Positions 3,805 through 25,054 of a DNA stretch of 64,000 bases are shown here, piece by piece. The stretch is from positions 2,542,001 to 2,606,000 of the forward strand of contig NZ_AP022618.1 of NCBI RefSeq assembly GCF_010731615.1, given 5' to 3'. The position numbers were made by a program, and so were the translations under genes. How positions within the stretch are numbered: the stretch's first letter is position 1; every line of letters begins with the position of its first letter. Source of the DNA: Mycolicibacterium insubricum. Its GTDB lineage: Bacteria > Actinomycetota > Actinomycetes > Mycobacteriales > Mycobacteriaceae. The notes below the pieces were generated by a model that was not told where the DNA came from, did no database searches, and saw only the letters and a program-made list of their open reading frames with translations.

Positions 3805-3805
<1 letters not shown>
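1922..3805 (+). CDS. mutA: Methylmalonyl-CoA mutase, small (beta) subunit
   Basis: A 627-residue subunit of the adenosylcobalamin-dependent mutase that interconverts succinyl-CoA and (R)-methylmalonyl-CoA. It has the TIM-barrel domain typical of the family ([77 protein letters not shown]). The C-terminal Rossmann-like domain lacks the cobalamin-ligating DxHxxG motif, as expected of the non-catalytic subunit. It starts at GTG 1922, with AGGAG seven bases upstream. The stop codon shares one base with the mutB ATG (TGATG), giving translational coupling. The position next to a methylmalonyl-using PKS locus is of interest. Equivalent of Rv1492. Confidence 0.96.
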
Positions 3806-6072
<2,267 letters not shown>

Positions 6073-6075
6073 CGC

Positions 6076-7047
6076 GTGGACATCACCAGCCTCGCCGCCG
6101 GGATCCGGGCGGGCGATCGGTCCGTCCTGGCCCGGGCCATCACCTTGGTCGAATCCACCCGCCCCGACCACCGGGACCAGGCCCAGCATCTGCTGCTGGA
6201 GCTGATGCCGGAAGCCGGCAGCGCCATGCACGTCGGCATCACCGGCGTACCCGGGGTTGGCAAGTCGACCTCGATCGAGGCCCTCGGCATGTACCTGATC
6301 GAGGCCGGTCACCGGGTCGCGGTGCTTGCGGTGGACCCGTCGTCCACCCGGACCGGGGGTTCCATCCTCGGCGACAAGACCCGGATGGGCCGGCTGTCCG
6401 TGCACCCCGACGGCTACGTCCGCCCGTCGCCGACGTCGGGCACCCTCGGCGGGGTCACCAAGGCGACCCGGGAGACCATCGTGCTGCTGGAGGCGGCCGG
6501 ATTCGACATCGTCCTGGTGGAGACGGTCGGCGTCGGTCAGTCCGAGGTCGCCGTCGCCGACATGGTCGACACCTTCGTCTTCCTCACCCTGGCCCGCACC
6601 GGCGACCAGCTGCAGGGCATCAAGAAGGGTGTGCTGGAGCTCGCCGACATCGTGGTGGTCAACAAGGCCGACGGCGCGCACAAGATGGAGGCCCGCTCGG
6701 CCGCCCGGGAGCTGGCCGGTGCGATCCGGCTGATCTACCCGCGCGAGACCCTGTGGCGGCCCCCGGTGCTCACCATGAGTGCCCTGGAGGGCACCGGCGT
6801 GACCGAACTGTGGAACACCGTCTGCGATCACCGCCGGGTATTGACCGAGGCCGGTGAGTTCGAAACCCGGCGCCGCAACCAGCAGGTCGACTGGATGTGG
6901 GCGATGGTGCGCGACGAGGTGCTGGACCGGGTGCTCACCGCGCGCGGGGTCAAGGCGATCCGGGCCGACGTCGAGTCGGCCGTTCGGGAGGGCCGGCTCA
7001 CCGCGGTGTTGGGGGCCGAACAGATTCTGGCGGCGGTGGCTGAGTAA
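6076..7047 (+). CDS. meaB: Methylmalonyl-CoA mutase-associated GTPase MeaB (ArgK family)
   Basis: A 323-residue P-loop GTPase that guards methylmalonyl-CoA mutase, gating cobalamin loading and preventing inactivation. Walker A is GVPGVGKST at residues 57-65. The switch region (LAVDPSSTRTGGSILGDKTRM), the DIVLVETVGVGQSE segment and the NKADGAHK specificity motif are all present, and the C-terminal dimerisation arm is intact. The start is GTG 6076, three bases after mutB, so it is co-translated with the mutase genes. It is the equivalent of Rv1496. The stop codon runs into a short hairpin at 7047-7062 that may end the operon. Confidence 0.95.
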   Translation: MDITSLAAGIRAGDRSVLARAITLVESTRPDHRDQAQHLLLELMPEAGSAMHVGITGVPGVGKSTSIEALGMYLIEAGHRVAVLAVDPSSTRTGGSILGDKTRMGRLSVHPDGYVRPSPTSGTLGGVTKATRETIVLLEAAGFDIVLVETVGVGQSEVAVADMVDTFVFLTLARTGDQLQGIKKGVLELADIVVVNKADGAHKMEARSAARELAGAIRLIYPRETLWRPPVLTMSALEGTGVTELWNTVCDHRRVLTEAGEFETRRRNQQVDWMWAMVRDEVLDRVLTARGVKAIRADVESAVREGRLTAVLGAEQILAAVAE

Positions 7048-7062: not shown

Positions 7063-7148
7063 GTGACCGCGCGGCGGATTTGCGCACGGGGATTTTCTGG
7101 TGTTTTCCGACGGTGCTTCGGCCGAATGAGGTGCCGGCCCGACCATCG

Positions 7149-7207
7149 GACACGGTGTCGTCTCGCCATCCGACGACACCTAGATATCCCATTTCCGACA
7201 CCGTGTC
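7149..7207. promoter_or_regulatory. Pair of GACAC-N-GTGTC palindromes (candidate operators)
   Basis: GACACGGTGTC occupies 7149-7159 and GACACCGTGTC occupies 7197-7207. Both are perfect 5-bp inverted repeats around one base, with centres 48 bp apart. The 12-bp forms GACACGGTGTCG and CGACACCGTGTC are exact reverse complements. They sit about 230-280 bp upstream of the PKS promoter and 90-150 bp after meaB. Function is inferred from symmetry only. Confidence 0.45.
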
Positions 7208-7218
7208 GCGATTTTCGG

Positions 7219-7254
7219 CTACCTAGTCGAAACATGCTACGTAGTCGGAACATG
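7219..7254 (+). repeat. 18-bp tandem direct repeat, two copies
   Basis: CTACCTAGTCGAAACATG at 7219-7236 is followed without a gap by CTACGTAGTCGGAACATG at 7237-7254, with two mismatches in 18. A third AACATG occurs at 7264-7269 inside the palindrome AAACATGTTT (7263-7272). The array lies in the PKS upstream region and may be a set of protein-binding sites. Confidence 0.7.
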
Positions 7255-7430
7255 CTGTGAGCAAACATGTTTTGAATCGCTGATTGGACGCTGGTCGCCA
7301 TCTTTCGGCCTTGGCGGCCATCGGTACAGCTATGAACCCGCTGAGAGTCGGTGATGAAAAGCGTTGAGCTGCAATATGACTTGATCTGTCAAAAAATCGT
7401 GCCGGGGGAGACGTCGCGTCGAGGGAGGCC

Positions 7431-7459
7431 TTGACAGCCTTCCTGGCCGATCCTATGGT
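7431..7459 (+). promoter_or_regulatory. SigA-type promoter of the PKS operon
   Basis: A perfect -35 box TTGACA (7431-7436) is separated by exactly 17 bp from TATGGT (7454-7459), a good -10. Transcription would start near 7466. This predicts a leader of about 145 bases to the chosen PKS start at 7610. Confidence 0.7.
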
Positions 7460-7609
7460 TTGCGTGAAATCAGCGGTATTGCTTGATGTTCGATGACGCA
7501 CATCAAAGAATCGCTCACATTGGTCCGGGACGTCGAAACCTGTCCGGGGCTCATTTCGCGTCCCGCAGTCGCGGCCGCACCTTTATCCGGGCGAGGAGTT
7601 CTGTCAGGC

Positions 7610-10600
7610 ATGTCTGCGTCTTCGTACACGCCCGTCGCAGTGATCGGGATGGCCTGCAGACTGCCCGGTGGCATCGACTCGCCGGACTCGCTGTGGACCG
7701 CCCTGCTGGGAGCAGAAGACCTGGTCAGCACCGTTCCGCCCGGGCGCTGGGACGCCGATGACTACTACGACCCGCAACCCGGAGTGCCCGGTCGGTCGGT
7801 GTCCAAGTGGGGTGGGTTCATCGACGATGTCGCCGGATTCGACGCCGAATTCTTCGGTATCGGCGGGGCGGAGGCCACCGCGATCGACCCACAACACCGG
7901 GTACTGCTCGAAACCGCCTGGGAAGCAGTCGAACACGCGGGGATCGACCCGAAATCCCTGGCCGGCACCCGCACCGGAGTGTTCGTGGGCATGACCCACG
8001 GCGACTACCAGTTGCTGGCCGCCGACGCCAATGTCATCGAGGGCCCATACGGGTTCACCGGCACCAACTACAGCCTGGCTTCTGGTCGGATCGCCTACGC
8101 GCTGGGTGCCTGCGGCCCCGCCTACACGGTGGATGCGGCCTGCTCATCGGGTTTGCTCGCAGTCCACCTCGCCTGCCGCAGCCTCGATGACGGCGAAAGC
8201 GACACCGCGCTGGCCGGCGGGGTATCACTGCTGCTGGACCCGCGCAAGATGGTGTCCGGATCCGCGCAGGGCATGCTGTCGGCGACCGGACGGTGCCGGG
8301 CGTTCGACGTCGCCGCCGACGGGTTCGTCTCAGCCGAGGGTTCGGCCGTCCTCATGCTCAAACGGCTGGCCGACGCTCGGCGCGACGGGGACCGGGTTCT
8401 CGCGGTGATCCGTGGCACCGCCGCCAACCAGGACGGGCACACCGTCAACATCGCCACCCCGTCCATGTCGGCGCAACGGGCGGTATATACCACCGCACTG
8501 ACTGCGGCCGATGTCGATCCGTGTAGCGTCGGAATGGTCGAGGCGCACGGCACCGGCACCCCGGTGGGTGACCCCATCGAGTACGAGAGCCTGGCCGGCG
8601 TCTACGGAACCGCCGGACCATGCGCGCTGGGATCGGTGAAAACCAATGTGGGACACAGTCAGTCAGCCGCCGGTGCAGTCAGCCTGATCAAGGCGGTGCT
8701 GTCGGTTTCTCACGGCATCGTGCCAGCGAATCTGCACTTCTCCGGCCTGCCCGAGAAACTCCAGTCGATCCCGACCGGTCTGTTCGTGCCCCAACAGACC
8801 ACCGATTGGCCGGTCACCGGGGACGGACCCCGCCGGGCCGCGGTCTCGGCCTACGGCTTGTCCGGCACCAACGTACACGCCGTCATCGAGCAGGCTCACG
8901 ACGAGATCCCGCAGCCCGCACCCGGAGCCGACACCGCGCCGGCTCTGTTCACCGTTTCGGCGAGCTCGGAAGAGGAGCTGCGACGCAGCGCGATCCGCCT
9001 GGCGCAGTGGGTGTCCGGACCATTCGAAGACACCGGTGCCGGGCTGGGAGATCTTGCCTACACGCTGGCCCGCCGCCGTGGCCACCGGCGCCATCGGGTG
9101 GCGGTGACGGCCCGCGACAGCGCCGAGTTGGGGACCGCGCTACATGATGCGGGGGCACTGGCGCACCCGGCCGCGGTGGGGAACGACGACCGCGGGCCGG
9201 TCTGGGTGTTCTCCGGCCATGGCTCCCAGTGGCCCGCGATGGGCGCAGGATTGTTGCGCACCGAGCCCGAATTTGCTTCAGCCATAGCTGAACTGGAACC
9301 GTTGATGGTAGCGGAGGCGGGCTTTTCGATCACCGAACTGCTGACCGACCCCGCGCCCGTCACTGCCATGGACCGGGTCCAGCCGGCGGTGTTCGCCGTA
9401 CAGATCGGGCTGGCCGCGACGCTACGGGGCCACGGCGTGCACCCGGCCGCGGTGATCGGTCATTCCATGGGTGAGGTCGCCGCCGCAGTCGTGGCCGGTG
9501 GACTGTCGCTGCGCGACGGCGTCGCGGTCATCTGCCGCCGCTCGGCCCTGATGGCCTCGATCGCCGGCTCCGGAGCCATGGCATCGGTGGAACTGCCCGC
9601 CGCCCAGGTCCTCTCCGAGCTCGCCGGTCGCGGTATCGGTGATGTAACCCTGGCGGTGGTGGCCGCACCGGGCTCCACCGTCGTCGGGGGCAACCGGGAT
9701 TCGATCCGGCAGTTGCTCGCCGACTGGGCCGCGCGGGACATCGCTGCGGCCGAGGTGGCCGTCGAGGTCGCCTCCCATTCCCCGGAGGTCGCGCCGATCC
9801 TCGACGACCTGATCGAGGCTCTGACCGATCTGAACCCCGGGGAACCGCATTGTGACTATTACTCGTCGACGCTCTACGACCCGCGCGACCGGGCTGATTG
9901 GGACGCGTATTACTGGGCGGACAATCTGCGACACACGGTCCGCTTCGCGGCAGCAGTCCAGGCCGCACTCGAGGACGGCCACCGCGTATTCGCCGAACTG
10001 TCCCCGCACCCCCTGCTGACCCACGCCGTCGACCAGACCGCGCGGGACCAGGACACCTCCGTGGCCACGGTGGCAGCCATGCGCCGCGACCAGGATGGGG
10101 CTGGCGGGTTGCTTCCGGTGGTCGGCGCCCTGTACGCCGCCGGAGCCGCGGTGGATTTCGGAGCGATCCTGCCGGACGGGTCCATGGTGGACGCGCCGCT
10201 GCCCAGCTGGACCCACCAGCACCTGATGGTCGACCGCGACGAAGCCGGACCGACTGGCCCGACCGTTGCCGCGCACCCACTGCTGGGCGCCCACGTGCGG
10301 CTGGCCGAGGAACCCGAACGCCACGTCTGGCAGGCCGATCTGGGGACCGACGTCCAGCCGTGGCTGGCAGACCACCGGGTGCACACCGCCGCAGCGTTGC
10401 CCGCGGCGGCGTACTGCGAAATGGCGCTGAGCGCGGCAAGCGCCGTGCACGGACCGGGTGCGATCGCCACCGATATCACCTTCGAGCAGCTGCTGCTGCT
10501 CGATCCCTCCACCACCGTGTCCAGCACGGCGAGCGTGGCCGTCGGTGGCGGCAGCGCGTTCGTCGTGGAGACCGGCGGTGACGGTGGCGCCGTGCGCCGA

Positions 10601-13600
10601 TCCGGGGCCCGACTAGCTCCGGCATCGCAGGAGCGTCCCGGTCGCCGCGACATCACGGTGCTGCGCGATACGCACCCCCAGCACATGGGCGGGGACGAAC
10701 TGCGGGCCTGGTTCGCCGAGCGCGGGATCGACTACGGCCCGGCGTTCACCGGACTGACCGCCGCCTATACCGGCGGCGGACCGACCGTCCTCGCCGAGGT
10801 CAGCCTGCCCGTCAAGCTGCGATCGGCCCAGCGCGGCTACCTTATCCACCCCGCCTTGCTGGATGCCTGCTTCCAAGCCGCCGGCGCACACCCCGATCTG
10901 CAGGCCGACCTCACCGGGATGCTCGCGCTGCCACTGGGTGTGGCGCGGCTGCAGGTGCACGCCGACCCCCGGGCGGCCCGCTACTGCCTGCTCCGGATCA
11001 ACCGGATAGACCTGACCGAGATCGACGCCGATATCGAGGTCCTCGACGAATCCGGTGCGGTGCTGGTCACCGTCACCGGTCTGCGCCTGGGTACCGGGCT
11101 GTCCCTGGGGTCGCGCAGGGCCCGCATCCTGGACGATCGCCTGCTGACCATCGATTGGGCCGCCGCACCGAATCCGACGCCATCGGCGGGCCAGGCCGGC
11201 CGCTGGCTGCTGATCGCTGCAACCCCGGGAACTGCCGGGCGGCTGGACACATTGGCCGCAGCGCTCCGCGACCACGGTGCGGCCGTCGAGACGCTGGCCC
11301 TTGCACCCGATACCGCCTGCGCGACGGACATGGCGGCACTCACCGAACTGCTGGCCCGCGAACGCTTCGCCGGGATCGTGATCCGCACGGCACCGACAGC
11401 CGACCGCGACACACCGGTAGCCGGCCTAGACCAGGTCGGCCGGTTGGTACCGGTACTGGCGGCCGTCGCCCAAACCCCCGGCGAGCACGGTGTTTTCCTG
11501 GTCACCGAGAACGCCCAGCAGGTACTGCCCGACGAGCCGATCGATCTGTCGCAGGGCGGGCTGCGCGGCTTGGTCCGGGTATTCGCCATGGAACAGCCCG
11601 GCACCGCGACCGTCCAGATCGACCTCGACACCGACTCCGACGCGTCGGATGTCGCCGCGCAGTTGCTGTCCGGCGCCGCCGAGGATGAAAGTGCCTGGCG
11701 CGCCGGCCACTGGTACGTGGCACGACTGCGGCCGACGCCGTTGCGACCCGACGAACGACGGAGCGTGCGCGCCGATCACGCAAGCGACGGGTTGCGCGTC
11801 GAGATCCGCACGCCGGGCGACCTGGAATCGGTCGAGCTGGTGGCCGTTGACCGGCATCCACCGGGACCCGGCCAGATCGAGGTCGCCGTCGCCGCATCGG
11901 CCCTCAACTTTGCCGACGTGCTCGTCGCACATGGCCGCTACCCGAGCTTCGAGGGACGACTTCCGCAGTTCGGGGCGGACTTCGCCGGAGTGGTGACGGC
12001 CGTCGGAGCGGGCGTCGTCGAACACCGCGTCGGCGATCGGGTCGCCGGAATCACCGGCCAGGGCGCGTGGGCGAGCTATCTGACCTGCGATGCGAGCCTC
12101 GCCGTACGCCTCGACGATTCGATCACCGACGGTGTCGCGGCTGCCGTACCCAGCGCCCACGCCACCGCCTGGTACTGCCTGCACGAACTCGCGCGGATCC
12201 GCCGGGGCGACAAGGTGCTCATCCACTCCGCCACCGGCGGCGTCGGCCAGGCCGCCGTCGCCATCGCGCGCGCTGCCGGCGCCGATATCTTCGCCACGGC
12301 CGGCAGCCCGGCGCGTCGTGATCTCCTGCGGCAGTGGGGAATCGACCACGTCTACGATTCCCGTAGCACGGCCTTCGCCGACGAGATCCGGGCCGACACG
12401 GCCGGTTACGGCGTGGACATCGTGCTCAACTCATTGCCCGGTGCGGCGCAACGCGCCGGTCTGGAGCTGTTGTCGTTCGGCGGCCGGTTCCTGGAAATCG
12501 GCAAGCGTGACATCTACGGGGACACCCGCTTGGGATTGCTGCCGTTCCGGCGCAACCTGTCGTTCCACGCCGTCGACCTCGCCCTGCTCACCCTCACCGA
12601 ACCGGATGCCGTGGCCCGAGTGTTGACCTGCGTGTATCGCGCCATCGCCGACGGCGTGCTGCCGGCACCGGCCACCACCGAATATCCACTGTCGGAAGCG
12701 GCGACCGCACTGCGGACCATGGCCGCGGCCGGCCACACGGGCAAGCTGGTCCTCGTCGTGCCCCGCACGGGCGCCAGCGAGGTGGTACTTCCCCCCGAGC
12801 AGGTTCCGGTCTACCGGCCCGACGGTGCGTACCTGATCACCGGTGGTCTGGGCGGGCTCGGGCTGCACCTGGCTCAGCGTCTCGCGCAGGCGGGCTGTGG
12901 ACGTATCGTGCTGAACGGCCGATCGGCGCCGACCGCCGAGGCGTCGGCCGTGCTGGCCGATATCGGCGCCACGGGCACCGAGATCGTGGTCGTCCGTGGC
13001 GATATCGCCGCCGAAGGCACCGCCGCGTGGCTGGTCGAGGCGGCGATGGCCACCGGATTGCCGGTGCGCGGCGTTCTGCACGCGGCAGCGGTCATCGAAG
13101 ACGCGACCGTACCCAACATCACCGACGAGTTGCTGAAACGGGACTGGGGCGCCAAGGTTCACGGCGCCTGGCACCTGCAGCAAGCCACCGCGGACTCGCC
13201 GCTGGATTGGTTCTGCGTGTTTTCCTCGGCGGCCGCGATGGTTGGGTCCCCCGGACAGGGCGGGTACGCGGCCGCCAACAGCTGGCTGGATTCCTTCACC
13301 CGCTGGCGTCGCACGCAGGGGCTGCCGGCAACGGCCATCGCCTGGGGTGCCTGGGCGCAGATCGGACGCGGTCAGGCTCTGGCCGGGACAGTCACCGACA
13401 TGGCCATCGCGCCCGACGACGGCGCACATGCCTTCGAAGCGGTGATCCGCTCTGATCGGGCATACACGGGTTACGCGCCGATCGCGGGAACGTCGTGGGT
13501 CCGGGCATTCGCCCGGTCCAGCAAGTTCGCCGAGGCGTTCGCCGCGCTCGGCGCAGGCACCCCCGGGACCAGCGCTCTGCGGGCGGAATTGCGTGAGTTG

Positions 13601-13873
13601 CCGCCGCACGAATGGCCGGCCCGGCTGCGCCGATTGGTCACCGAACAGATTGGGCTCATTCTGCGTCGCAGCGTCGAGCCGGACCGTCCGTTGACCGAAT
13701 GCGGTCTGGATTCACTGGGCAGCCTGGAGATCCGTACCCGCATCGAGAAGGAAACCGGTGTAAGGGTGGGTGGCACGGCGATCACCACCGTGCGCGAACT
13801 CGCAGACCACCTCGCCGGTGCGATCGCCGCCCAGGACGACGCCGCGACATCGGGACCGGCATGGTCGCGATAA
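7610..13873 (+). CDS. pks: Reducing type I polyketide synthase, Mas/Pks2 type (KS-AT-DH-ER-KR-ACP)
   Basis: About 2087 residues with all domains of a mycocerosic-acid-synthase-like iterative PKS. KS has active Cys178 in [10 protein letters not shown] has GHSMGE near residue 616, with the VASH motif near 720 that marks methylmalonyl-CoA selection. The DH region has [11 protein letters not shown] has [13 protein letters not shown] near 1535. KR has [14 protein letters not shown] near 1743 and [11 protein letters not shown]. The C-terminal ACP has its phosphopantetheine Ser in GLDSLGS. There is no thioesterase, so release needs a PapA partner. It most resembles M. tuberculosis Pks2, which makes phthioceranic chains. 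Start choice: ATG 7610 is preceded by GAGGAG and opens the KS domain ([16 protein letters not shown]). An in-frame ATG at 7493 would add 39 unrelated residues and lacks a ribosome-binding site. The gene overlaps papA by 13 bases. Confidence 0.93.
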
Positions 13874-15333
13874 CGGCAATCGGGGACTGGAACGGCGAGC
13901 CGGGGGAGTTGACCTCCTGGCATCCTTCGCCGGCCAGCCGGGCCCGATTGGCGTCGGCGCCGGTGAGTCCCATCCCGGTCAGCTATCAGCAGGAACAGCA
14001 TCTGCGCGCGTTCCGTTCGCACACCGCTCGCGGCACCGAGATGGCCAGGTTGAACATCCCGGCCTGGGATATGCCCGGTCGCTGCGACGTGCGGGCGATG
14101 TCCCACGTGATCAACGCCTACCTGCGCCGGCACGACACCTACCACAGCTGGTTCGAGTTCGGCGCCGACGACTCCGTGGTACGTCGGACCGCGCGCAGCC
14201 CCCGCGACATCACACTGGTGCCGGTGGCTCACGGTGAGCTGACGGCGGCACGGTGGCGCGAACACGTGCTGTCCACGCCGGGCCCGCTGCAGTGGGACTG
14301 TTTCGGATTCGGGGTCATTCAGCGCAAAGACCATTTCACGTTTTACCTCGCCATCGACCACGTGCACACCGATGCGATGTTCATGGGTCTGGTACTTACC
14401 GAGATTCACCTCATGTACACCGCACTGGTCGGTGGACGACCGCCGATTCCGCTGACCCCCGCCGGCAGCTACCACGACTACTGCCTTCGGCAGCGCGCCT
14501 ATACCGAATCGCTGAGCCTGCAATCACCGGAGGTTGTCGAGTGGATCCGATTCGCGCAGGGCAACGACGATGTGCTGCCGCACTTCCCGCTGCCATTGGG
14601 GTCAACCGACCACGCCTGGGGAGGTGACCTGATCACCGTCGACCTGCTCGACGCGGACCAGGGAGCCCGGTTCGAATCGGCGTGTGTCCGGGCCGGCAGC
14701 AGATTCTTCGCCGGGGTGCTCGCCTGTGCAGCTCTCGCCGAGACCGAACTCACGGGACGACGAAAGTATTTCGCGATCACACCGACGACGACCCGGCGGT
14801 CCGCCGAGGAGTTCATGACTACCGGCTGGTTCACCGGACTGGTGCCGGTCACGGTCGAGGTGACACCGGACTCGTTTGCCGACACCGCCCGATCCGCACA
14901 GCATTCCTTCGACGCCAACGTCGCGCTGGCCGATGTACCCGTCGAGCGGGTACTCGAACTGGCTGCGCCACTGGGCATCACCGCGCCCGCGCCGGGAGTG
15001 ACCATGGTGTCCTTCCTCGACGCGGGGCTGCCGCCGCTCTCACCGGAAATCATCGACGCATGGGAAGGTATGAACGGAAAGCTGTTCTTCGACAACCGAT
15101 CCGCATACCAGGTAGGCGTCTGGGTGAACCGGACCGCGCGGCGAACCACCGTTACCGTGGCGTTCCCGGACAATCCGGTCGCCCGAGCCTCGGTGACCCG
15201 CTACCTGGAGGTGCTGGTGCGGGAGTATCGCGACACCGCCAGCGGCGAGGGATACGGCAACGGCCCGTCGCGGGCGGTTCGGGTCCGGGCACACCGACCC
15301 GGGATACGTGCCGAAGCGCCGGTTGGCGGCTGA
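13861..15333 (+). CDS. papA: PapA-family polyketide-associated acyltransferase (PapA1-like)
   Basis: A 490-residue member of the condensation/acyltransferase fold that moves a PKS-made chain from the ACP to an alcohol acceptor, usually a trehalose hydroxyl in this subfamily. It resembles PapA1 throughout: an N-terminal [18 protein letters not shown], then [21 protein letters not shown], then [23 protein letters not shown]. The catalytic HxxxDG motif reads HVHTDA at residues 167-172. The base His and the Asp are kept, but the Gly is Ala. The C-terminal half has [13 protein letters not shown] and [13 protein letters not shown]. The start ATG 13861 overlaps the PKS stop by 13 bases, so the two are translationally coupled. 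The acceptor is inferred from family, not shown. Confidence 0.88.
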
Positions 15334-15336
15334 CCG

Positions 15337-16695
15337 ATGGCCGCACCGGCGCACCCGGATCTGCTCGACTATCTCGACCAGGCGATGTTCCTCGGACTGC
15401 GGGCGACCGGTCAGGCCGCGGTCATGCAGTGCATCTGGATCTACCAACGCGCGGTAGATCTGGACGGCGTACACCGATTCCACCGCAACTTCGGACGGGG
15501 ACTGGCCGGGCGTCGGATCGAACCCTCGCCACTGCCGTTCGGCCGGCACCGTTGGGCCTCCGGCGCTCCGGGTGCGTTGGATGTCGGCACCGACCCCATC
15601 CCGCGCTCCGATGTCGCGGACTGGCTGGATCACCGTGCCCGATTGCCGATCGACCCGCAGTGGGGCCCGGGTTGGCACCTGGCGGTGCAACCGCTGACCG
15701 ACGGTGGCACCGTCATCAGCCTGGTCGGCTCGCACTGCCTGGCCGACGGAGGCGGGGGAGTTCTGGAGATCCTCAACGCGGTCAACGGCACACCCCGCAC
15801 CCTCGGGCACCAGCCGGTCGGGGCCCGAACCCGCCGCCGGGCACTGGCCGCCGATGCCCGCCAGCTGGTGCGCGATCTGCCCACCGCCGGACGGGCTCTG
15901 CGCCAAGCCCTCCGAACCGTGGCCCGCGACAATGAGCGCCGAAGGCGTCCAATCCGGTCCGCGGAACCCCGCCGTCGCGACGCCGTCCCCACCGATCACG
16001 GCAACGTCGTTGTCGCATCGGTCACCTGCATCGTGGCAGCAGACCGATGGCGCAGCCGCGCCGAGTCGCTGGGCGGAAACTCGCACTCGCTGCTGGCCGG
16101 ATTCACCGCCCGGCTCGGCCACCGGATGGGCAGAGGTACCGGACCGGACGGCACCGTCGCCCTGATCGTCCCGATCAACGACCGCCGCAGCCTCGACGAC
16201 ACCAGGGCCAATGCGGTACGGCTCGGCGACGTCCGGATCGACCCGCGACGGGTTACCACCGACCTGAGCGTCGCGCGCGCCGACATCCGAGAAGCGCTGG
16301 ACCGGCTCGACCGGGCACCGGACCCGACACTGCACCTGCTGCCGCTGATTCCGTACGTGCCCAAGCGGGCCGTCGGGCGGCTGGCCGAAACGGCGTTCGG
16401 GTTCGCCGACCAGCCCGCCTCCTGCTCCAACATGGGCGTCCTCCCTGCCGAGGTCGCCCGCCTCGACGGCGCCGATGCGGACTACGTCGCGATGCGCGGG
16501 ATCGACCGCCATATCACCCGGTCGGTACTCGAACAGCGCAGCGGCCTGCTGACCGTGGTCGGTGCGCAGGTGGGCGCGCACCTGTCCATCGCGGTGGTGG
16601 GCTACCAACCCGGTGCGGTCAACACCCGGGCCTGGCTGGCAGATCTGGTGGCCGCAACGTTGTCGGATTTCGCGCTCGACGGCGTCGGCATCTGA
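15337..16695 (+). CDS. Condensation-type acyltransferase-like protein, copy 1
   Basis: A 452-residue protein I cannot assign to a characterised enzyme. It has an HxxxDG motif (HCLADG, residues 133-138) after a GTVISLVG strand and a later SCSNMG segment, consistent with the chloramphenicol-acetyltransferase/condensation/WS-DGAT fold. It is clearly related to the next gene. The block around residues 48-73 (FHRNFGRGLAGRRIE, then SPLPFGRHRW) is nearly identical in both, as are DTRANAVR and a VGYQPG..NTR end. No signal peptide or membrane span is seen. It starts three bases after papA and its stop overlaps the next ATG (TGATG). Context suggests an acyl transfer step in making the lipid of this locus; the acceptor is unknown. 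Confidence 0.75.
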   Translation: MAAPAHPDLLDYLDQAMFLGLRATGQAAVMQCIWIYQRAVDLDGVHRFHRNFGRGLAGRRIEPSPLPFGRHRWASGAPGALDVGTDPIPRSDVADWLDHRARLPIDPQWGPGWHLAVQPLTDGGTVISLVGSHCLADGGGGVLEILNAVNGTPRTLGHQPVGARTRRRALAADARQLVRDLPTAGRALRQALRTVARDNERRRRPIRSAEPRRRDAVPTDHGNVVVASVTCIVAADRWRSRAESLGGNSHSLLAGFTARLGHRMGRGTGPDGTVALIVPINDRRSLDDTRANAVRLGDVRIDPRRVTTDLSVARADIREALDRLDRAPDPTLHLLPLIPYVPKRAVGRLAETAFGFADQPASCSNMGVLPAEVARLDGADADYVAMRGIDRHITRSVLEQRSGLLTVVGAQVGAHLSIAVVGYQPGAVNTRAWLADLVAATLSDFALDGVGI

Positions 16696-18005
16696 TGTCG
16701 GTCCGTCTCGGCTATCTCGATCAGGCCGCGCACCTGTCGATGCGAGCCACCGGGCGGCGGCAGCTGGTCCAGCTCGGGTGGTTGTATCGACGGCCGGTGG
16801 ACCCCGAGGGAATCGCCCGATTCCATCGCAACTTCGGCCGTGGCCTGGCGGGCCGCCGCATCGAGCGCTCACCGCTGCCGTTCGGCCGGCACCGCTGGGT
16901 CGCCGCTCCCGATCCCGCTCCGCTGAAGTTCAGCGAAATTGTCAGGCCCGGTGAGGAACTCGGCGACTGGTTCGACGAACGGTCGCAGATCCCGGTCGAT
17001 CCCGAGCACGGTCCGGGCTGGCACATGGCGGTGCAACCGTTCAGTGCCGGCGCAACGGCCGTCACCGTCGTCGGATCGCATTGCCTGCTCGACGGGGTGG
17101 CGGTGTTGACGGCCGCCGCGCACGCCGCTGACGACCGCGCCGAACCCATGGACTGGCCGCCGCCGCGTTCCCGGTCACCGGTGCGCGCGGTGCTGGCCGA
17201 TCTGGCCCAGACCTGCCGCGACATCCCGGATCTGGTGGCTGCCGCGCGTGCCGGCCTGCGCGGTATCGGCGGCGAACCGGGAGACAGAACCGGGGTGGTC
17301 GTCGAGGCGGCCGACGGTGACCGGCTGGTCCGGGTGCCCGCCCTCAACGTGTTTGTCAGCGCCCGGGCCTGGGACGAGGTCGCTGCTCGATTCGGTGGCA
17401 ACGGTTACAGCCTGCTCGCCGGGCTGGCCGCCGAGTTGGGGCGCCGGATGCGCCGCTGCGGCGACGGCCGGGCCGCCGAGTTGCTCATCGCGCTCAGCGA
17501 GCGAACCGTCGGCGACACCCGCGCCAACGCGCTGCGGATGGCCACCGTGCGGGTCGACCCCGCCACAGTCACCACCGATCTGACTGCGACGCGCACTGCG
17601 ATCCGCGCCGCTGTGGCGGACGCGCGCACCACCGGCGACGGCATGTTCGCGATGCTGCCGCTGGCCCCCTTCGTCCCGCTGCGGGTGGCCCGGCGGCTGG
17701 GTGCCGCCATGTTCGGAAGTCAGCCGATATCGTGCTCCAACCTCGGCGAACTGGACCCGGCGGTGTGTCGCCCGGACGGCACCCCCGCCGACAGTCTCTT
17801 CCTTCGCCCGGTGGACCAGAACGTCCGCGAGCACGAAATCACCACCGGCGGAGGACAACTCGTCGTCGTCGCCGGGCGTGTCGGCGGCGTGGTGACGATC
17901 GGTATCGTCGGCTACACACCGGGCGGGGACAACACCCGGGCCGGTCTGCGGGCATTGGTCGACGCCGCGCTCGGCGCGTTCGGCCTGATCGGTGAGTTCG
18001 TTTGA
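16695..18005 (+). CDS. Condensation-type acyltransferase-like protein, copy 2
   Basis: A 436-residue paralog of the preceding gene. It keeps the HxxxDG motif (HCLLDG, residues 129-134), the FHRNFGRGLAGRRIE..SPLPFGRHRW block (43-68), the DTRANALR motif, SCSNLG and the VGYTPG..NTR C-terminus. The middle part (about 140-200) is divergent between copies. The start ATG 16695 overlaps the stop of copy 1 by one base, and its own stop overlaps the mmpL start, so it is translated in series. The tandem copies suggest an old duplication followed by specialisation, for example two acyl groups or two positions on one acceptor. An alternative is that one copy is a non-catalytic partner. The specific function is unknown. 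Confidence 0.75.
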   Translation: MSVRLGYLDQAAHLSMRATGRRQLVQLGWLYRRPVDPEGIARFHRNFGRGLAGRRIERSPLPFGRHRWVAAPDPAPLKFSEIVRPGEELGDWFDERSQIPVDPEHGPGWHMAVQPFSAGATAVTVVGSHCLLDGVAVLTAAAHAADDRAEPMDWPPPRSRSPVRAVLADLAQTCRDIPDLVAAARAGLRGIGGEPGDRTGVVVEAADGDRLVRVPALNVFVSARAWDEVAARFGGNGYSLLAGLAAELGRRMRRCGDGRAAELLIALSERTVGDTRANALRMATVRVDPATVTTDLTATRTAIRAAVADARTTGDGMFAMLPLAPFVPLRVARRLGAAMFGSQPISCSNLGELDPAVCRPDGTPADSLFLRPVDQNVREHEITTGGGQLVVVAGRVGGVVTIGIVGYTPGGDNTRAGLRALVDAALGAFGLIGEFV

Positions 18006-21000
18006 CCCAGTCGCACCCCGGACGGGTGCTGCCGGCCATCGGCCGGCTGGTGGTTGCGCACCCGGTGCTGGTGATCCTGGCGTGGGTCGCGACAGCGGTG
18101 GTCCTGACACTGACCATCCCGCCCCTGGCGGTGGTGGCGCAACGCAACCCACCACCGCTGCTACCCGCCGACGCCCCGGTACTGATGGCCGGCAACGCCA
18201 TGCAATCCGCATTCGGGGAGGCCGGCTCCGGCAACGTCGCCGTGGTGGTGCTGCACGACGGCCACGGTCTGAGTCCCGGTGACGAATCTGTCTACCGGGA
18301 TCTGGTCGCCCGCTTGCGCGCCGACACCGACGACGTCGAATCGATCCAGGACTTCGTCGCCATCCCCGAGCTGCGCGAGGTGATGACCAGCAAGGACCAA
18401 CAGGCCTGGACCTTGCCGATCAGTCTCACCGGGACCATGGGTACACCGGGCGGCCAGGCGGCGTTCCGGGGCGCCATGCGCATCGTCGAGGAGGCGACCG
18501 CGCACACGGCGCTCACCGCCGATGTCGTCGGGCCGGCCGCCACACTGGAAGACGTCAACGACATCGGTGCCGGCGATCAGCACCTCATCGAGATCGCCAC
18601 CGTTGTCCTGGTGCTCACCATCTTGATCCTGGTGTATCGCAACGTCGCTGCCATGCTGATGCCGCTGCTGACCATCGGAGTGTCACTGGTGGTCGCACAG
18701 CAGGTGGTGGCCGGACTGGGCCTGCTCGGGTTGGGTCTGGGACCCCAGACGCTCATGCTGATGACCGGAATGATGATGGGAGCCGGGGTCGATTACGCGG
18801 TATTCCTGTTCAGCCGCTATCAGGAGTTGCTGCGCGCCGGTCAGCGATCCGACGACGCCCTGGTCGCCGCGCTGCAGACGATCGGGGAAGTGATCACCGG
18901 TTCGGCCGGAACAGTCGCGCTGACCTTCGTCGGTTTGGGGCTGGCCACCCTGGGGGTATTCGCGACCGTCGGACCCGCTCTCACCGTCACCATCGCCACC
19001 GGTTTCCTCGCCTCGATGACATTGCTGCCGGCTCAGATCGTGATCGCCGGCCGGCGGGGCTGGATCGCACCGCGCCGGGACCTCACCGGTCGACTCTGGC
19101 GGCGCACCGGCGTGGCTGTGGTCCGCCGGCCCGGCCGTTACCTGGCCGTCAGCCTGGCGGCACTGCTCGGGCTGGCTGCCTGCACCGGATTTGCCAAGTT
19201 CAACTTCGACGACCGGATCACCTTGCCGGCCGAAGCGGCGAGTAACCGTGGCTACGACGCGATGACCGCGCACTTCCCGATCAGCACCACCCTGCAGCAA
19301 TTCGTCGTCATCCACGCCCCGGATCAGGATCTGCGGAGTCCACGGGCCCTCGGCGACCTCGAGCAACTCGCCGCGCGGGTAGCCCAACTACCAGGTATCG
19401 ACGCCGTTCGTGGCTTGACCCGGCCCACCGGCGAAACTCTGGAGCAAAGCCGCGCGACCTACCAGGCCGGTGAGGTCGGTGGAAAGCTGCGTGACGCTTC
19501 GTCGCAGATTGCCCGGAACGACGGAAATCTCAGCCAGCTCAGCGACGGGGCCGACAAACTCGCTGAGGTGCTCGGTCAGGTCCGCGACCAGGTCAGCGGA
19601 TCGCTGGGCAGTATTCGCATTCTGCTCGGCGCCCTCACCGAGTTGCAGACGAAGGTGGGCGGCGGCCTCACGCTGGCCGAAATCGACCGCACCGCCACGC
19701 TCGTCGACAATATGCAGACGATGGGCGGCGCCCTTGATCAAAGCATCGAGCGGATGAGCCGGTTGCACACCTGGGCCGCACCGATGGTTACCGCGCTCAA
19801 CGCCAGCCCCGTCTGTGACGCGGACCCCGGGTGTGTGGCCGGCCGTGCCGATCTGACTCAACTGGCCGAATCCGGCGACAATCCGCCGATGCAGGCGCTG
19901 AAGGCCCTGGTGCAACAGCTCAAGAATACGAAATCCTCTACAACTCTTGGGGATTCGGTACGCAAACTGGGCCGCAGCCTGGCAACGGTGTCCGCCTCGG
20001 CCCGAAGTCTGGGTCTCGGCGGCGCCGGAGGCACCCAGAACAAACTCGTCGAGGCGCTCAACGGGGCCGGGACACTGGCCGAGTCCAGTCGAAAGCTCGC
20101 CGACGGCGTGCAGCTACTGGTCGACCGGACCAGGGAAGTCGGCGGTGGTCTGGATCAGGCGTCGCAGTTTCTGCTGGCGATGAAACGCGACGCCGCGACC
20201 CCGTCGATGGCTGGCTTCTACATTCCGCCCGAGGTACTGAGCCACTCGGAGTTCGAGAAGGCCGCCAAGCTGTTCGTATCCGCCGACGGGCACACGGTGC
20301 GCTATCTGGTGCAGACAGCGCTGAACCCGTTCGGTACCGAGGCGATGGACCAGGTGGATCAGATCATCGGGGCCGCGCGCAGCGCACTGCCCAACACCAC
20401 CCTGGCGGGCGCCGAAATCTCGATGGTCGGGTTCTCCGCGGTGAACCATGACATCCGCGACTACTACACCAGCGACCTGCGGTTCATCGTGGTGTTGACC
20501 CTCGTGGTGGTGTTTCTGATCCTGGCGCTGTTACTCCGGGCCGTCGTTGCCCCGCTGTATCTGGTGGCCTCGGTGGTGCTGTCCTACGCCTCGGCGCTGG
20601 GCATCGGAGTCGCGGTCTTCCAGTTCGGGCTGGGACAGCACCTGCACTGGAGTGTGCCCGCAATGGCGTTTCTGGTACTGGTGGCGGTCGGCGCCGACTA
20701 CAACCTGCTGCTGATTTCCCGTATTCGCCAGGAATCCGGGCGGGGGGTACGCACCGGCACCATTCGCACGGTGGCGGCCACCGGCGGTGTGATCACCTCT
20801 GCCGGTCTGATATTCGCTGCCTCCATGCTGGCACTGACGGTATCCAGCATCAGCACCGTGGTCCAGATGGGTTTCGTGATCGGTGTCGGCCTGCTGCTGG
20901 ACACATTCCTGGTGCGGACCGTCACCGTGCCAGCGCTGTGCGTGTTGGTCGGCGATGCCAACTGGTGGCCGTCGGGGCGCTACCGTACCCGCTCGAAGGC

Positions 21001-21013
21001 GCCGCTGACGTAA
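18002..21013 (+). CDS. mmpL: MmpL-family (RND) lipid transporter
   Basis: A 1003-residue RND-type inner-membrane transporter of the MmpL8/MmpL10/MmpL12 lipid-export kind. A first span lies near residues 20-45, followed by a periplasmic loop (about 46-185). A first block of spans carries the motif GAGVDYAVFLFSRY. A long second periplasmic domain (about 395-815) is rich in helical repeats such as ARSLGLGGAGG. A second block of spans carries VAVGADYNLLLISRIRQE. The paired Asp-Tyr motifs are the proton-relay residues of the family. The proposed TTG start at 18002 overlaps the upstream stop by four bases (TTGA); a GTG at 18026 is an alternative. It is the last gene of the PKS operon and overlaps the end of the facing fadD by 34 bases. 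It presumably exports the finished or nearly finished lipid. Confidence 0.93.
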   Translation: MTQSHPGRVLPAIGRLVVAHPVLVILAWVATAVVLTLTIPPLAVVAQRNPPPLLPADAPVLMAGNAMQSAFGEAGSGNVAVVVLHDGHGLSPGDESVYRDLVARLRADTDDVESIQDFVAIPELREVMTSKDQQAWTLPISLTGTMGTPGGQAAFRGAMRIVEEATAHTALTADVVGPAATLEDVNDIGAGDQHLIEIATVVLVLTILILVYRNVAAMLMPLLTIGVSLVVAQQVVAGLGLLGLGLGPQTLMLMTGMMMGAGVDYAVFLFSRYQELLRAGQRSDDALVAALQTIGEVITGSAGTVALTFVGLGLATLGVFATVGPALTVTIATGFLASMTLLPAQIVIAGRRGWIAPRRDLTGRLWRRTGVAVVRRPGRYLAVSLAALLGLAACTGFAKFNFDDRITLPAEAASNRGYDAMTAHFPISTTLQQFVVIHAPDQDLRSPRALGDLEQLAARVAQLPGIDAVRGLTRPTGETLEQSRATYQAGEVGGKLRDASSQIARNDGNLSQLSDGADKLAEVLGQVRDQVSGSLGSIRILLGALTELQTKVGGGLTLAEIDRTATLVDNMQTMGGALDQSIERMSRLHTWAAPMVTALNASPVCDADPGCVAGRADLTQLAESGDNPPMQALKALVQQLKNTKSSTTLGDSVRKLGRSLATVSASARSLGLGGAGGTQNKLVEALNGAGTLAESSRKLADGVQLLVDRTREVGGGLDQASQFLLAMKRDAATPSMAGFYIPPEVLSHSEFEKAAKLFVSADGHTVRYLVQTALNPFGTEAMDQVDQIIGAARSALPNTTLAGAEISMVGFSAVNHDIRDYYTSDLRFIVVLTLVVVFLILALLLRAVVAPLYLVASVVLSYASALGIGVAVFQFGLGQHLHWSVPAMAFLVLVAVGADYNLLLISRIRQESGRGVRTGTIRTVAATGGVITSAGLIFAASMLALTVSSISTVVQMGFVIGVGLLLDTFLVRTVTVPALCVLVGDANWWPSGRYRTRSKAPLT

Positions 21014-22677
21014 CGTTCGACGCACGCCTGCCGGCGGATCTTTCCGCTTGTGGTCAGCGGGATCGCACCACGCGACACCAGGACCAGCTCGCTGGCGGCG
21101 ATGCCGTGCGACTCCGAGATCGCCGAATGCACGGAGTTCTCGATCTGGGCCAGATGCTCGCGGATCTCATCTTCGGTGTTGCCGCGCTTCTTGGTCTCCA
21201 CGATCGCGACGAGCTCCTCGGCGTCGGCGCCCTGCACCACGAGCGCCACCGACCGGCAGCCGGAGATCGCGGTGATCGTGGCCTCGATGTCGTCGGGATA
21301 GTGGTTACGGCCACGCACGATCAGCAGATCCTTGATCCGCCCGACTATGAACAGCTCGCCGTCGGAAAGGAACCCGAGATCGCCTGTGCACAGCCAGCTT
21401 TCGGCTGGAGTATCCGATGTCGGTTCCACGATGACACCGGCGAAGGTGCGAGCGGTCTCTTCGGGTTTGTTCCAGTACCCCTGGCAGACATTGTCGCCGC
21501 GAACCCAGATCTCGCCGATTTCCCCATCGGCGCACTCCCGATGGGTCTGCGGATCGATGATGCGCACGGCGGGGGAGTCCGGGCAACCGTAGGAGACCAG
21601 CGTGGTTCCGGTTTCGGAGCGTTCGGCGACACCGTCGGAGAGCCGGTCCGGATCGAAATGCACGACGGTCGGGGCGGCTGCTGGGGCCGCGGTTGCGACG
21701 TACAGTGTGGCCTCGGCCAAGCCGTAGGACGGGCGGATCACACCGGCGGACAGCCCCAGCGGCGCGAACCGGCGCGTGAAGCGATCCAGCGAGCCGGGCA
21801 ACACCCTTTCGGCACCGTTCATGATGGCCAGCACCGAACTCAGATCGCAGCCGGGCAGTTCGTCGTCGCCGACTCGCGCGGCGGACAGGTCGAAGGCGAA
21901 GTTCGGTGCGGCACTCAGCGCATGGGGATGGGCGGCAAGCAGCTGCAGCCAGCGGGACGGACGGGCCAGGAACGCCAGAGGGGTGGTGAATACCGTGTGC
22001 CAGCCACCGAGAATCGGTGCGCAGATGCCCAGTAACAGGCCCATGTCGTGGTAGAAGGGCAGCCAGGACACCACCGTTGTGTCGGCGGGCGCCACCCCGC
22101 CATGGTGTGGGAAGAAGTACCGGATCATCTGCCGGTAGTTGGCTACCAGGTTGCGGTGCGAGACCATGACGCCGGCCGGTACCCGGGTTGATCCCGAGGT
22201 GTACTGCAGATAGGCCACGTCCTGAGTGGATCGGCGGCGGCGTGTCCCGGACCCCCGGGTCGGTGCTTCTGCCCGGGCGACGTCGATGATGGTTGCCGCC
22301 GGCGCTGCTGCGGCATGCGCGGCGACGGCCGCTTCCGTGGCCGAATCTGTCAGCAGTACCGCCGGTTGGGCGTCGGCGAGGACTGCGAGCACCCGCTCGT
22401 CGGCGGTCCCGGAGGCCGGAGGCGAAAGCGGTACCGCGATCAGGTCGGCTTCCAGGGCCGCGAGAAAACCGACCAGATAGTGCAGGTTCTGCGGGGTGAG
22501 GATCGCGGCGCGGTCGCCCGGTTGGGCGCGGTTGCGCAACACCCCGGCGAGATCGGTCACTCGGCGATAGAGCTGCGCCCAGGTCAGCTCATGGGCGACG
22601 CCGTCCCAATTCGTGTCGTAGTCGATGAAGGTGAACGCGGGGTCATTGGGTTGCAGGCTGGCACGCTCCCGCAGCAC
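20980..22677 (-). CDS. fadD: Long-chain fatty acyl-AMP ligase (FAAL), FadD23-like
   Basis: A 565-residue ANL-superfamily enzyme that turns a fatty acid into acyl-AMP and hands it to a PKS. Motifs seen are the P-loop-like YTSGSTRVPAGVM, SWLPFYHDMGLLLG, SAAPNFAFDL, RPSYGLAEATLYVA, LCTGDLGFL and IKDLLIVRGRNHYPDDIEAT. C-terminally, TTSGKIRRQAC contains the catalytic Lys. Overall it resembles FadD23/FadD21 of the sulfolipid and polyacyltrehalose loci, so it probably primes the adjacent PKS. The drawn GTG start at 22677 has no ribosome-binding site. AAAGGAA lies six bases before an in-frame ATC codon at 22701, which would restore the eight missing N-terminal residues. The gene is convergent with mmpL and divergent from lipL. 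Confidence 0.92.
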   Translation of the reverse strand: MLRERASLQPNDPAFTFIDYDTNWDGVAHELTWAQLYRRVTDLAGVLRNRAQPGDRAAILTPQNLHYLVGFLAALEADLIAVPLSPPASGTADERVLAVLADAQPAVLLTDSATEAAVAAHAAAAPAATIIDVARAEAPTRGSGTRRRRSTQDVAYLQYTSGSTRVPAGVMVSHRNLVANYRQMIRYFFPHHGGVAPADTTVVSWLPFYHDMGLLLGICAPILGGWHTVFTTPLAFLARPSRWLQLLAAHPHALSAAPNFAFDLSAARVGDDELPGCDLSSVLAIMNGAERVLPGSLDRFTRRFAPLGLSAGVIRPSYGLAEATLYVATAAPAAAPTVVHFDPDRLSDGVAERSETGTTLVSYGCPDSPAVRIIDPQTHRECADGEIGEIWVRGDNVCQGYWNKPEETARTFAGVIVEPTSDTPAESWLCTGDLGFLSDGELFIVGRIKDLLIVRGRNHYPDDIEATITAISGCRSVALVVQGADAEELVAIVETKKRGNTEDEIREHLAQIENSVHSAISESHGIAASELVLVSRGAIPLTTSGKIRRQACVERYVSGAFERVR

Positions 22678-22909: not shown

Positions 22910-24178
22910 ATGAACGAGACAGCTGTCCTCACCCGTGGCAGTGGGTTGCCGCGCGGGGTACGCGGTGCGGCGGATCCCGCGTTCGCCTGGGCGGTGCGCC
23001 AGTTCGCCGCGATGTTCCCGCACCGGCGCTTCGGCGGCGGTGCGTTGTCGGTCTACCTCGACGGTGAACCGGTCGTCGACGTGTGGACCGGCTGGTCGGA
23101 CCGGGCCGGCCGGCAGCACTGGGACGCCGACACCGGCGCGATGGTCTTCTCGGCGACGAAGGGGGTGGCCTCGACGGTCATCCACCGGCTCGCCGACCGC
23201 GGCCTGATCGACTACGACGCTCCCGTCGCGGAGTACTGGCACGAGTTCGGTGCCAACGGCAAGGCCGACATCACGGTTCGGGAGATGATGAGCCACCGGG
23301 CCGGGCTGTCCGGGCTGCCGATCAAAGCCGGCGACGACGTCCGCGACCATCTGCAGATGGAGGAACGGCTGGCCGCCGCACCGCACAGCGCGCTGCGCGG
23401 CCATCCCGCCTACCACGCACTCACCTACGGCTGGCTGACGTCCGGGCTGGCCCGCGCCGTGACCGGCAGCGGGATGCGGGAGCTGTTCCGGTCCGAGATC
23501 GCCGCGCCACTGGGTACCGACGGTCTGCACCTGGGCCGCCCGCCGGCCGGAGCCGCCACCCGAGCCGCCGAGATCATCGGGCCCCAGAAGATCCCCGGGC
23601 TGCCCGGCATCGGCTCGTGGGCGCCCACGGTGGCCCGGCATCCGTCGTCGGCGTTCTTCGGTGCGGTCTACTTCCCGTCGATGACCCACGCCATCCGCGG
23701 AGACACCCCGCTGCTGGACGCCGAGATCCCCGCCGCCAACGGGGTGGCCACCGCGCGCAGCCTGGCCCGCATGTATGCCGCGCTGATCAACGGTGGTGAG
23801 GTCGGCGGCGCCCGGCTGCTGTCGGCGGAGCGGGCTGCGGGACTGCGCGGACGAGTTGATCTGACCCGTGACCGCAACCTCGGTCTGCCGATGTCGTTCC
23901 ACCTCGGCTATCACGCTTCCCCGGTGCCGGGGGTGCTCCCCGGATTCGGGCACGTCGGGCTGGGCGGTTCGCACGGCTGGGCGATGCCGGACTCGGGTCT
24001 GGCCATCGGTTTCGTGCACAACCGGCTGCTGACCCCGTTCTTGATCACCGACCAGGCCGGGTTCCTCGGCACCGCGCAGTTGATCCGCCGAGGCGCGGCG
24101 ACCGCCCGCGCCCGCGGCTACCGGACCGTGTCGGACTTCGGGGCGCCCTATCAGCTGCCCGCCGCGGTCGCCGGCTGA
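22910..24178 (+). CDS. lipL: Beta-lactamase-family serine esterase LipL
   Basis: A 422-residue serine hydrolase of the class C beta-lactamase/esterase family, equivalent to Rv1497. The nucleophile motif SxxK is SATK, in AMVFSATKGVASTVIHRLADRG. ALTYGWLTSGLARAV supplies the second-site Tyr, and GLGGSHGWAMPDSGLAIGFVHN is the C-terminal active-site strand. Other family landmarks are WTGWSDRAG and MMSHRAGLSGLP. It has no obvious signal peptide. By family it hydrolyses short to medium acyl esters. The start ATG 22910 probably belongs to a leaderless message. In M. tuberculosis this gene follows the meaB homolog directly; here the lipid locus lies between them. It is convergent with the DUF202 pair. 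Confidence 0.9.
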   Translation: MNETAVLTRGSGLPRGVRGAADPAFAWAVRQFAAMFPHRRFGGGALSVYLDGEPVVDVWTGWSDRAGRQHWDADTGAMVFSATKGVASTVIHRLADRGLIDYDAPVAEYWHEFGANGKADITVREMMSHRAGLSGLPIKAGDDVRDHLQMEERLAAAPHSALRGHPAYHALTYGWLTSGLARAVTGSGMRELFRSEIAAPLGTDGLHLGRPPAGAATRAAEIIGPQKIPGLPGIGSWAPTVARHPSSAFFGAVYFPSMTHAIRGDTPLLDAEIPAANGVATARSLARMYAALINGGEVGGARLLSAERAAGLRGRVDLTRDRNLGLPMSFHLGYHASPVPGVLPGFGHVGLGGSHGWAMPDSGLAIGFVHNRLLTPFLITDQAGFLGTAQLIRRGAATARARGYRTVSDFGAPYQLPAAVAG

Positions 24179-24481: not shown

Positions 24482-24483
24482 CG

Positions 24484-24810: not shown

Positions 24811-24849
24811 GCCTGCCACCCTAATTAGGTCAACCGTTAGAATCGACGT

Positions 24850-25054
24850 AACGGCACCGATCCGGCCATCACCGGGGAGCCTTCGGAAGAACCGCCACCG
24901 TCGGTGGCCAACTAGACCCGAACGGGCCGGCCCGTCACAGCCTGCGAGTTGAGCGGCGTGCGCAAGCACGCAAGCGGGGTGGTACCGCGGCGCTCGCGCA
25001 CACCGCGCGTCCGTCGTCCCCGTGCCGGAACATCAGGCACAGGAGACGACCGCC
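24850..25054 (+). promoter_or_regulatory. ileS T-box riboswitch (actinobacterial translational type)
   Basis: The leader contains the short Stem I of actinobacterial ileS T-boxes. CCGGCC and ACCGG flank the isoleucine specifier ATC at 24868-24870, followed by GGGGAGCCTTCGGAAGAAC. The T-box consensus GGGGTGGTACCGCGG lies at 24976-24990. Downstream, GTCGTC (25013-25018) can pair with GACGAC (25045-25050), and GTGCC (25022-25026) with GGCAC (25036-25040). That hairpin would enclose the AGGAG ribosome-binding site at 25041-25045. Uncharged tRNA-Ile is expected to favour the antisequestrator and open translation. A TAGAAT -10-like box at 24838-24843 could drive it. Confidence 0.93.

Follow-up and report, generated by a model that had tools for sequence, protein, structure and literature searches.

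Which lipid, if any known one, is made by the six-gene block that stands between meaB and lipL in Mycolicibacterium insubricum? The window analysed here is a 64,000-nucleotide stretch of the single-contig genome of this species (C1:2542001-2606000; genome size 4,577,045 bases), and positions 7610-22677 of it encode a polyketide synthase (PKS), a PapA-like acyltransferase, two WS/DGAT-like acyltransferases (DGa and DGb), a predicted MmpL exporter and a predicted fatty acyl-AMP ligase (FAAL). In what follows, G numbers are genome handles, G000 being the genome of the window, and L numbers are fetched loci. We find that the locus is real, intact and conserved in two species. By sequence comparison, the block is a member of a locus family that bears sugar genes, these genes are lacking from it in the window and in Mycolicibacterium fallax (G394), and its six genes are intact. 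We therefore favour, as fairly probable, the reading that it is a lipooligosaccharide (LOS)-type locus of fast-growing mycobacteria reduced to its acyl and export half, which would make a non-glycosylated methyl-branched acyltrehalose. The interest of the locus lies in the loss of its sugar genes with the rest maintained, and in its little-studied pair of DG acyltransferases.

The six-gene set claimed for this block in an earlier note on the same DNA is borne out by the open reading frames and profile matches, with each gene abutting or overlapping the next and the FAAL gene convergent with the MmpL gene and overlapping its end. The same holds for the claim that no sugar, sulfate or Chp-type genes lie inside it, since the six genes fill 7610-22677. 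A sulfotransferase, a second PapA and Chp1, which mark the sulfolipid-1 locus, were not found in these positions, and no PE-PPE/Chp gene stands beside mmpL, for which the block has no room; both searches covered the block and were not made genome-wide. In a wider sample of 396 genomes, the DGa of G394 was 75% identical to that of the window, compared with 58-60% in the other 13 genomes with matches at E<=1e-155. The gene order in G394 is identical (meaB-PKS-PapA-DGa-DGb-MmpL-FAAL(-)-lipL-DUF202-DUF202-ileS), and the six genes share 74-88% protein identity between the two genomes. Ratios of nonsynonymous to synonymous substitution (dN/dS; window versus G394, Nei-Gojobori counting) were 0.18 for the PKS, 0.15 for PapA, 0.32 for DGa, 0.28 for DGb, 0.13 for MmpL and 0.24 for the FAAL, and 0.14, 0.15, 0.21 and 0.24 for the neighbours mutB, meaB, ileS and lipL. 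All six genes are thus under purifying selection between the two genomes, and these ratios together with the conserved gene order rule out chance or degenerate open reading frames.

Upon searching the 297 genomes of our genus sample for relatives of DGa, we found them in 242 (E<=1e-3), and fetched 40 regions around high-scoring matches, which were picked by score and not at random. A PKS, a PapA and at least two DG genes were present in 37 of the 40, the other three holding a lone DG gene (L056, L068, L076). In 26 of the 37 family loci lipL directly precedes the PKS, and in 25 of those 26 meaB precedes lipL, as judged from the stretch or from coordinates; in L065 meaB was not seen. Among the other 11, meaB adjoins the PKS in G002, where lipL was not seen; the rest comprise six loci at a distance of 34-36 kb from meaB, one truncated by a contig end and three at other places in the genome. 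A UDP-glycosyltransferase (PF06722, PF03033) was found within the fetched 20 kb in 35 of the 37 loci and in the next stretch for G077, bringing the count to 36. Its position corresponds to the DGb-MmpL junction, at which DGb and MmpL overlap in the window, and the junction is the same in G394. The earlier note had taken the block for a separate kind of locus, a claim that we do not uphold, as the block belongs to this widespread glycosyltransferase-containing family on the evidence of the 37 regions and of the trees described below.

G087 is the one exception among the 37: no UDP-glycosyltransferase lies between its ileS and its meaB, though the genome has three paralogues elsewhere. This is a second, apparently independent family locus lacking its own glycosyltransferase (L078, L141), with the FAAL between DG and MmpL. 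The stretch beside MmpL was examined further in five loci (G207, G142, G246, G002, G087), and GT2 and ABC genes were present in four of them and a pyruvyl transferase in two. G207 has a nitroreductase-like protein, a polysaccharide pyruvyl transferase, a UDP-glucose dehydrogenase, two GT2 genes and DrrAB-like ABC genes, G142 and G246 have GT2 and ABC genes, and G002 has ABC genes, a GT2 gene and a pyruvyl transferase. The one open reading frame scanned beside MmpL in G087 had no Pfam match, and two scanned on the far side of MmpL in G077 were DUF899 and YkuD. As a separate observation, the PKS frames of two loci are in pieces (L064 of G231, 1094-9328; L130 of G105, 39-5277), which may reflect assembly error or decay.

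For the sugar genes that were searched, the lack extends beyond the block. The locus glycosyltransferase, which as a query matches 236 of the 297 genus genomes at E<=1e-110, had no match in G000, G394 or G175 at E<=1e-3, in a run in which four of the seven genomes did match. No pyruvyl transferase was found in G000 or G394, with matches in 5 of 7 genomes searched; for the ABC permease, G394 had no match and G000 a distant one at 29%. Glycosyltransferase genes in the locus, by which LOS loci are recognised, are absent from the window block. G175 contains no PKS of the window kind at all. According to one report, the closest relative of M. brumae is M. fallax, followed by M. insubricum, and LOS as well as diacyl- and polyacyltrehaloses (DAT, PAT) are absent in M. 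brumae (PMC9850167); G175 is probably M. brumae, and its lack of the locus would then fit. A literature search that left subscription literature mostly outside yielded no account of the block for M. fallax, M. insubricum or M. brumae.

The earlier note had proposed trees of the PKS and the MmpL, and the window PKS, PapA, MmpL and FAAL all branch inside the locus family, whose order PKS-PapA-DG-DG with an MmpL the window shares. Support values are SH-type, without bootstrap, and the labels of the reference rows (slow-grower LOS, MAS, PE-PPE-linked) are our own, given from site and neighbour genes. The window PKS falls in a 30-row family clade (support 100) whose sister is G077/G011/G133 (94); rows labelled slow-grower LOS, MAS (L128 and L129, beside a PDIM-type MmpL and a PDIM-type FAAL) and PE-PPE-linked lie outside this clade. 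The window MmpL is in a 34-row clade (100), outside the branch of L117/L130, two rows that we labelled as slow-grower LOS, the PapA is in a 40-row clade (100), and in the FAAL tree of 15 rows the window groups with G157/G204 (99). The PapA and MmpL trees were repeated with G394, those of the PKS and FAAL being without it, and in the repeats window and G394 group together (100) beside six loci away from lipL (98 for MmpL, 86 for PapA). A long-branch artefact, considered in view of the end branch of 0.5 of the window PKS in the first trees, was rejected for PapA and MmpL, as adding G394 shortened the branch in the PapA and MmpL repeats and the place was kept. On the PapA tree the glycosyltransferase state changes twice, on the window/G394 branch and in G087, and because of the trees we infer loss of the glycosyltransferase rather than later gain in the relatives.

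Against PDB 5bp1 and 5bp4, which we take to be MSMEG_4727 of M. smegmatis, the related PKS of G011 reached 1558 and 1717 bits; four other related PKSs scored 1322-1390 and 1456-1528 bits, and the window PKS 1247 and 1285 bits. The link to M. smegmatis rests on these scores and on this identity of 5bp1 and 5bp4. The PKSs of L126 and L127 were considered as the M. smegmatis PKS and discarded, L081 being the closest. The studied example of the fast-grower LOS-type loci is MSMEG_4727-4737 of M. smegmatis, and the loci of this type have MAS-like PKSs of sister clades; the fetched relatives, like the window, combine PapA, DG genes, an MmpL and mostly a FAAL, whereas the window and G394 have neither the glycosyltransferase nor the pyruvyl transferase, nor any close relative of the ABC genes. 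Two papers describe the M. smegmatis LOS island as 11 genes silenced by Lsr2 and report effects of LOS-type lipids on colony form and on phage adsorption in this species (PMC11139207, PMC8125055).

In the pathway that we propose, the FAAL would convert a fatty acid to an acyl-AMP for loading on the PKS, which would use methylmalonyl-CoA to extend the chain into a methyl-branched fatty acid. PapA would then place one or two acyl chains onto trehalose, DGa and DGb would add the remaining chains in place of a Chp-type transesterase, and MmpL would export the non-glycosylated multi-acyltrehalose; the AT-rich region upstream of the PKS could keep the locus silent through Lsr2. More tentatively, and somewhat below even chances, the LOS pathway in the M. 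fallax lineage would have given rise to a new non-glycosylated methyl-branched tri- or tetra-acyl trehalose, made with one PapA and two WS/DGAT-like enzymes, without Chp and with an MmpL of glycosylated-lipid ancestry. If so, the lineage-specific changes common to the two PKSs and FAALs would mark a new acyl chain.

Several points weigh against reading the block as the reduced half of an LOS-type locus. The trehalose acceptor is itself an inference, as are the number and type of the acyl chains. Furthermore, the PKSs of L001, L079 and L082, which have the same gene order, fall outside the window clade, so that the descent of the PKS matches the gene order in part only. At 391 positions invariant in 49 other PKS rows the window deviates at 14, G394 sharing 11 of these, and the window FAAL deviates at 14 of 173 invariant positions, 9 of them in common with G394. 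Identities of the window to relatives, set against other pairs, are 64 versus 73 for the PKS, 63 versus 69 for PapA and 79 versus 82 for meaB, and the window MmpL and LipL show no excess divergence relative to meaB. The common PKS and FAAL changes and the excess PKS and PapA divergence may reflect a shift of substrate or product, and the acyl half may thus have shifted function in the window/G394 lineage. Absence from the locus, moreover, need not be absence of the step, as G087 with its three glycosyltransferase paralogues elsewhere illustrates, and a G142-type GT2 query gave two weak matches in G000 (28-29%) and none in G394, this query barely finding the GT2 of G207 and other glycosyltransferase families not all having been searched. 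These last two findings lend themselves to the view that the LOS-type pathway is complete, with the sugar steps supplied in trans from glycosyltransferases elsewhere and only the arrangement different; we regard this as unlikely, since neither a pyruvyl transferase nor any relative of the locus glycosyltransferase was found in G000 or G394, and their ABC permease matches are the distant one and none given above.

The changed PKS and FAAL, together with the WS/DGAT superfamily membership of DGa and DGb and the absence of any sugar gene from the block, could also be accommodated by an acceptor other than trehalose, with PapA and the DG enzymes building a wax ester, an acylglycerol or another neutral methyl-branched lipid. 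We hold this to be improbable as well, given that relatives with sugar genes likewise retain at least two DG copies and that the window family of MmpL otherwise stands beside a glycosyltransferase. A DAT/PAT-type or trehalose polyphleate (TPP)-type locus, likewise of pks-papA-mmpL-fadD content, might have come to this site by chance; its core enzyme types are the same, and the window FAAL has its highest score on the general FAAL model, followed by that of FadD21. The window PapA and MmpL, however, branch apart from the PE-PPE-linked L124 and L125, and the block has no PE-PPE gene but two WS/DGAT-like genes, which L124 and L125 do not show, leaving this explanation with little probability.

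Comparison with the known systems bears on what the reduced LOS-type locus could export. Like the window block, slow-grower LOS loci (MmpL12, M. marinum) combine pks, papA, fadD and mmpL and use the site beyond lipL towards ileS, but in the loci so labelled by us MmpL and PapA are on separate branches, and the window block has no sugar genes. In an M. marinum mmpL12 mutant, LOS-I to LOS-III accumulate inside the cell (PMC12507525), and MmpL12 therefore moves a glycosylated lipid. The window MmpL belongs to a family whose other members stand beside a glycosyltransferase, and its predicted cargo is unglycosylated. For DAT/PAT, PapA3, FadD21 and Pks3/4 are placed in the cytosol, with export by MmpL10 and Chp2 acting outside (PMC4183827). 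In these loci (Pks3/4, PapA3, FadD21, MmpL10, Chp2) and in TPP loci, as probably in the window, a FAAL feeds a PKS, PapA acylates trehalose and an MmpL exports the product; they differ in having a Chp/PE-PPE gene, which is beside mmpL in L124 and L125, where the window has two WS/DGAT-like genes and other MmpL and PapA branches. By analogy, the block would hold all the steps of acyltrehalose making and export except a Chp-type enzyme, with the two DG acyltransferases in its stead. The MAS of phthiocerol dimycocerosate (PDIM) synthesis resembles the window PKS in its domain order and in the VASH and GHS(M/L)GE motifs of the AT. Overall, the lineage seems to have dropped the sugar half of the LOS-type locus while the acyl half was kept under selection. 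M. fallax with the locus and G175 without it form a natural pair, which bears on the acyl part's own function, on the role of the DG pair and on which part of its cargo, sugar or acyl, MmpL recognises.

The chromosomal neighbourhood is, as the earlier note had suggested, a recurring home for such loci, including LOS-type clusters, the fast-grower version and the PKS pieces of G175. LOS-type PKSs, in multi-PKS clusters that we so labelled on the basis of location and gene content, occupy the interval from lipL to ileS in G006 (where lipL is a partial match) and G064; they lie after lipL at about 26-72 kb in G203 and G222, and on the corresponding side of an opposite-strand lipL in G105. Other PKS matches about 3 kb from lipL in G073:C1 and G016:C1 point to further use of the site. 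In G175, which by its meaB (87% identical) is the window's nearest relative in the sample, PKS-like fragments lie between meaB and lipL, with no match over the PKS cut-off. By eye, the stretch at about 16517-19046 of L113 (G175) contains KS pieces with thioesterase-like and monooxygenase-like pieces, apparently relics of a different PKS locus, and as it reads as pieces of another PKS its candidacy as a remnant of the window locus was rejected and it was not counted. The block does lie between meaB and lipL, as had been claimed, but its insertion there is one of two readings, as lipL may have moved instead. In the fetched flanks of L114, L115, L131 and G246, meaB and lipL adjoin each other with no such block between them, and coordinates give the same adjacency for G142 and G218. 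A move of the block is favoured because MmpL and PapA group the window with six loci that have meaB-lipL without the block; the PKS tree does not decide between a move of the block and a move of lipL.

With regard to the individual enzymes, the window PKS is full-length, with the domains KS-AT-DH-ER-KR-ACP and the catalytic residues of KS, AT, DH, KR and ACP retained, and it is the only one of 25 NF041183 matches in its genome that exceeds the cut-off of this model. The NCBIfam label, sulfolipid Pks2, was rejected for it, since this model gives higher scores to other MAS-like PKSs, some of them at LOS-type sites; the G222 PKS reaches up to 4137 bits on NF041183. A second large PKS region in the genome (G000:C1:1828593-1842477; L006, L007) contains reading frames 2997 and 863 aa long and gives several partial PKS-model matches. 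The DHVHTDA motif of PapA is identical in 32 of 46 relatives. DGa shows both the HxxxDG motif and the superfamily (WS/DGAT) acyltransferase fold; it has no Pfam match (P0003), even though its relatives are as widespread as described and stand mostly as tandem pairs in the fetched loci. For the DG pair, our literature search found no paper naming two of MSMEG_4728-4730. The FAAL scores below the FadD21 and FadD28 cut-offs (1100).

The PKS most plausibly starts at 7610, where a ribosome-binding site and ATG are kept in G394, whereas the ATG at 7493 is not. Positions 7201-7400 are the lowest-GC 200 bp of the 64 kb (steps of 50). Lsr2 is reported to repress the LOS cluster of M. smegmatis, with binding upstream of MSMEG_4727 (PMC8125055, PMC11139207), and by analogy the AT-rich stretch may be a candidate Lsr2-type silencing site. 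The promoter-like boxes downstream of it (Table 1) matched once in 17 kb, which is chance level (mean of shuffles 1.3), so that a promoter is suggested only by position and conservation. Third-position GC of the six genes is 0.80-0.84 in the window, with 0.92-0.94 for mutB, meaB and ileS, and the corresponding values in G394 are 0.89-0.93 and 0.95-0.96.

Table 1. Positions of the block, its borders and nearby features in the window.
Feature	Position	Strand	Remarks
mutB, methylmalonyl-CoA mutase large subunit	3802..6072	+	NF006944 1275 bits, cut-off 876
meaB, left border of the block	6076..7047	+	PF03308; NF006958 500 bits
AT-rich stretch upstream of PKS	7201..7400		GC 0.50 versus window mean 0.69
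Promoter-like TTGACA-17-TATGGT	7431..7459	+	G394 has similar boxes in the corresponding position
MAS-type iterative reducing PKS, KS-AT-DH-ER-KR-ACP	7610..13873	+	Longest open reading frame from 7493
PapA-like acyltransferase	13861..15333	+	PF00668; DHVHTDA = HxxxD
DGa, WS/DGAT-like acyltransferase	15337..16695	+	Invariant HxxxDG (H133, D137, G138)
DGb, second WS/DGAT-like acyltransferase	16695..18005	+	HCLLDG; PF03007 and TIGR02946 weak, both below cut-off
MmpL/RND exporter (predicted)	18002..21013	+	PF03176, TIGR00833; 4-base overlap with DGb
FAAL, FadD21/FadD28-like (predicted)	20980..22677	-	NF004509 827 bits, cut-off 775
lipL, right border of the block	22910..24178	+	NF052353
Class I tRNA synthetase, ileS by synteny	25022..28192	+	PF00133; right-hand marker of the site in related loci

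Beyond the block, mutB serves as the left-hand synteny marker and is a possible source of methylmalonyl-CoA. Two adjoining DUF202 genes occupy 24200-24969 on the minus strand of the window, between lipL and ileS, and are present in G394 too. Additionally, a second AT-rich stretch lies at 59801-60200 of the window (GC 0.545-0.585 in 200-bp windows), around the end of the open reading frame 58635-60077.

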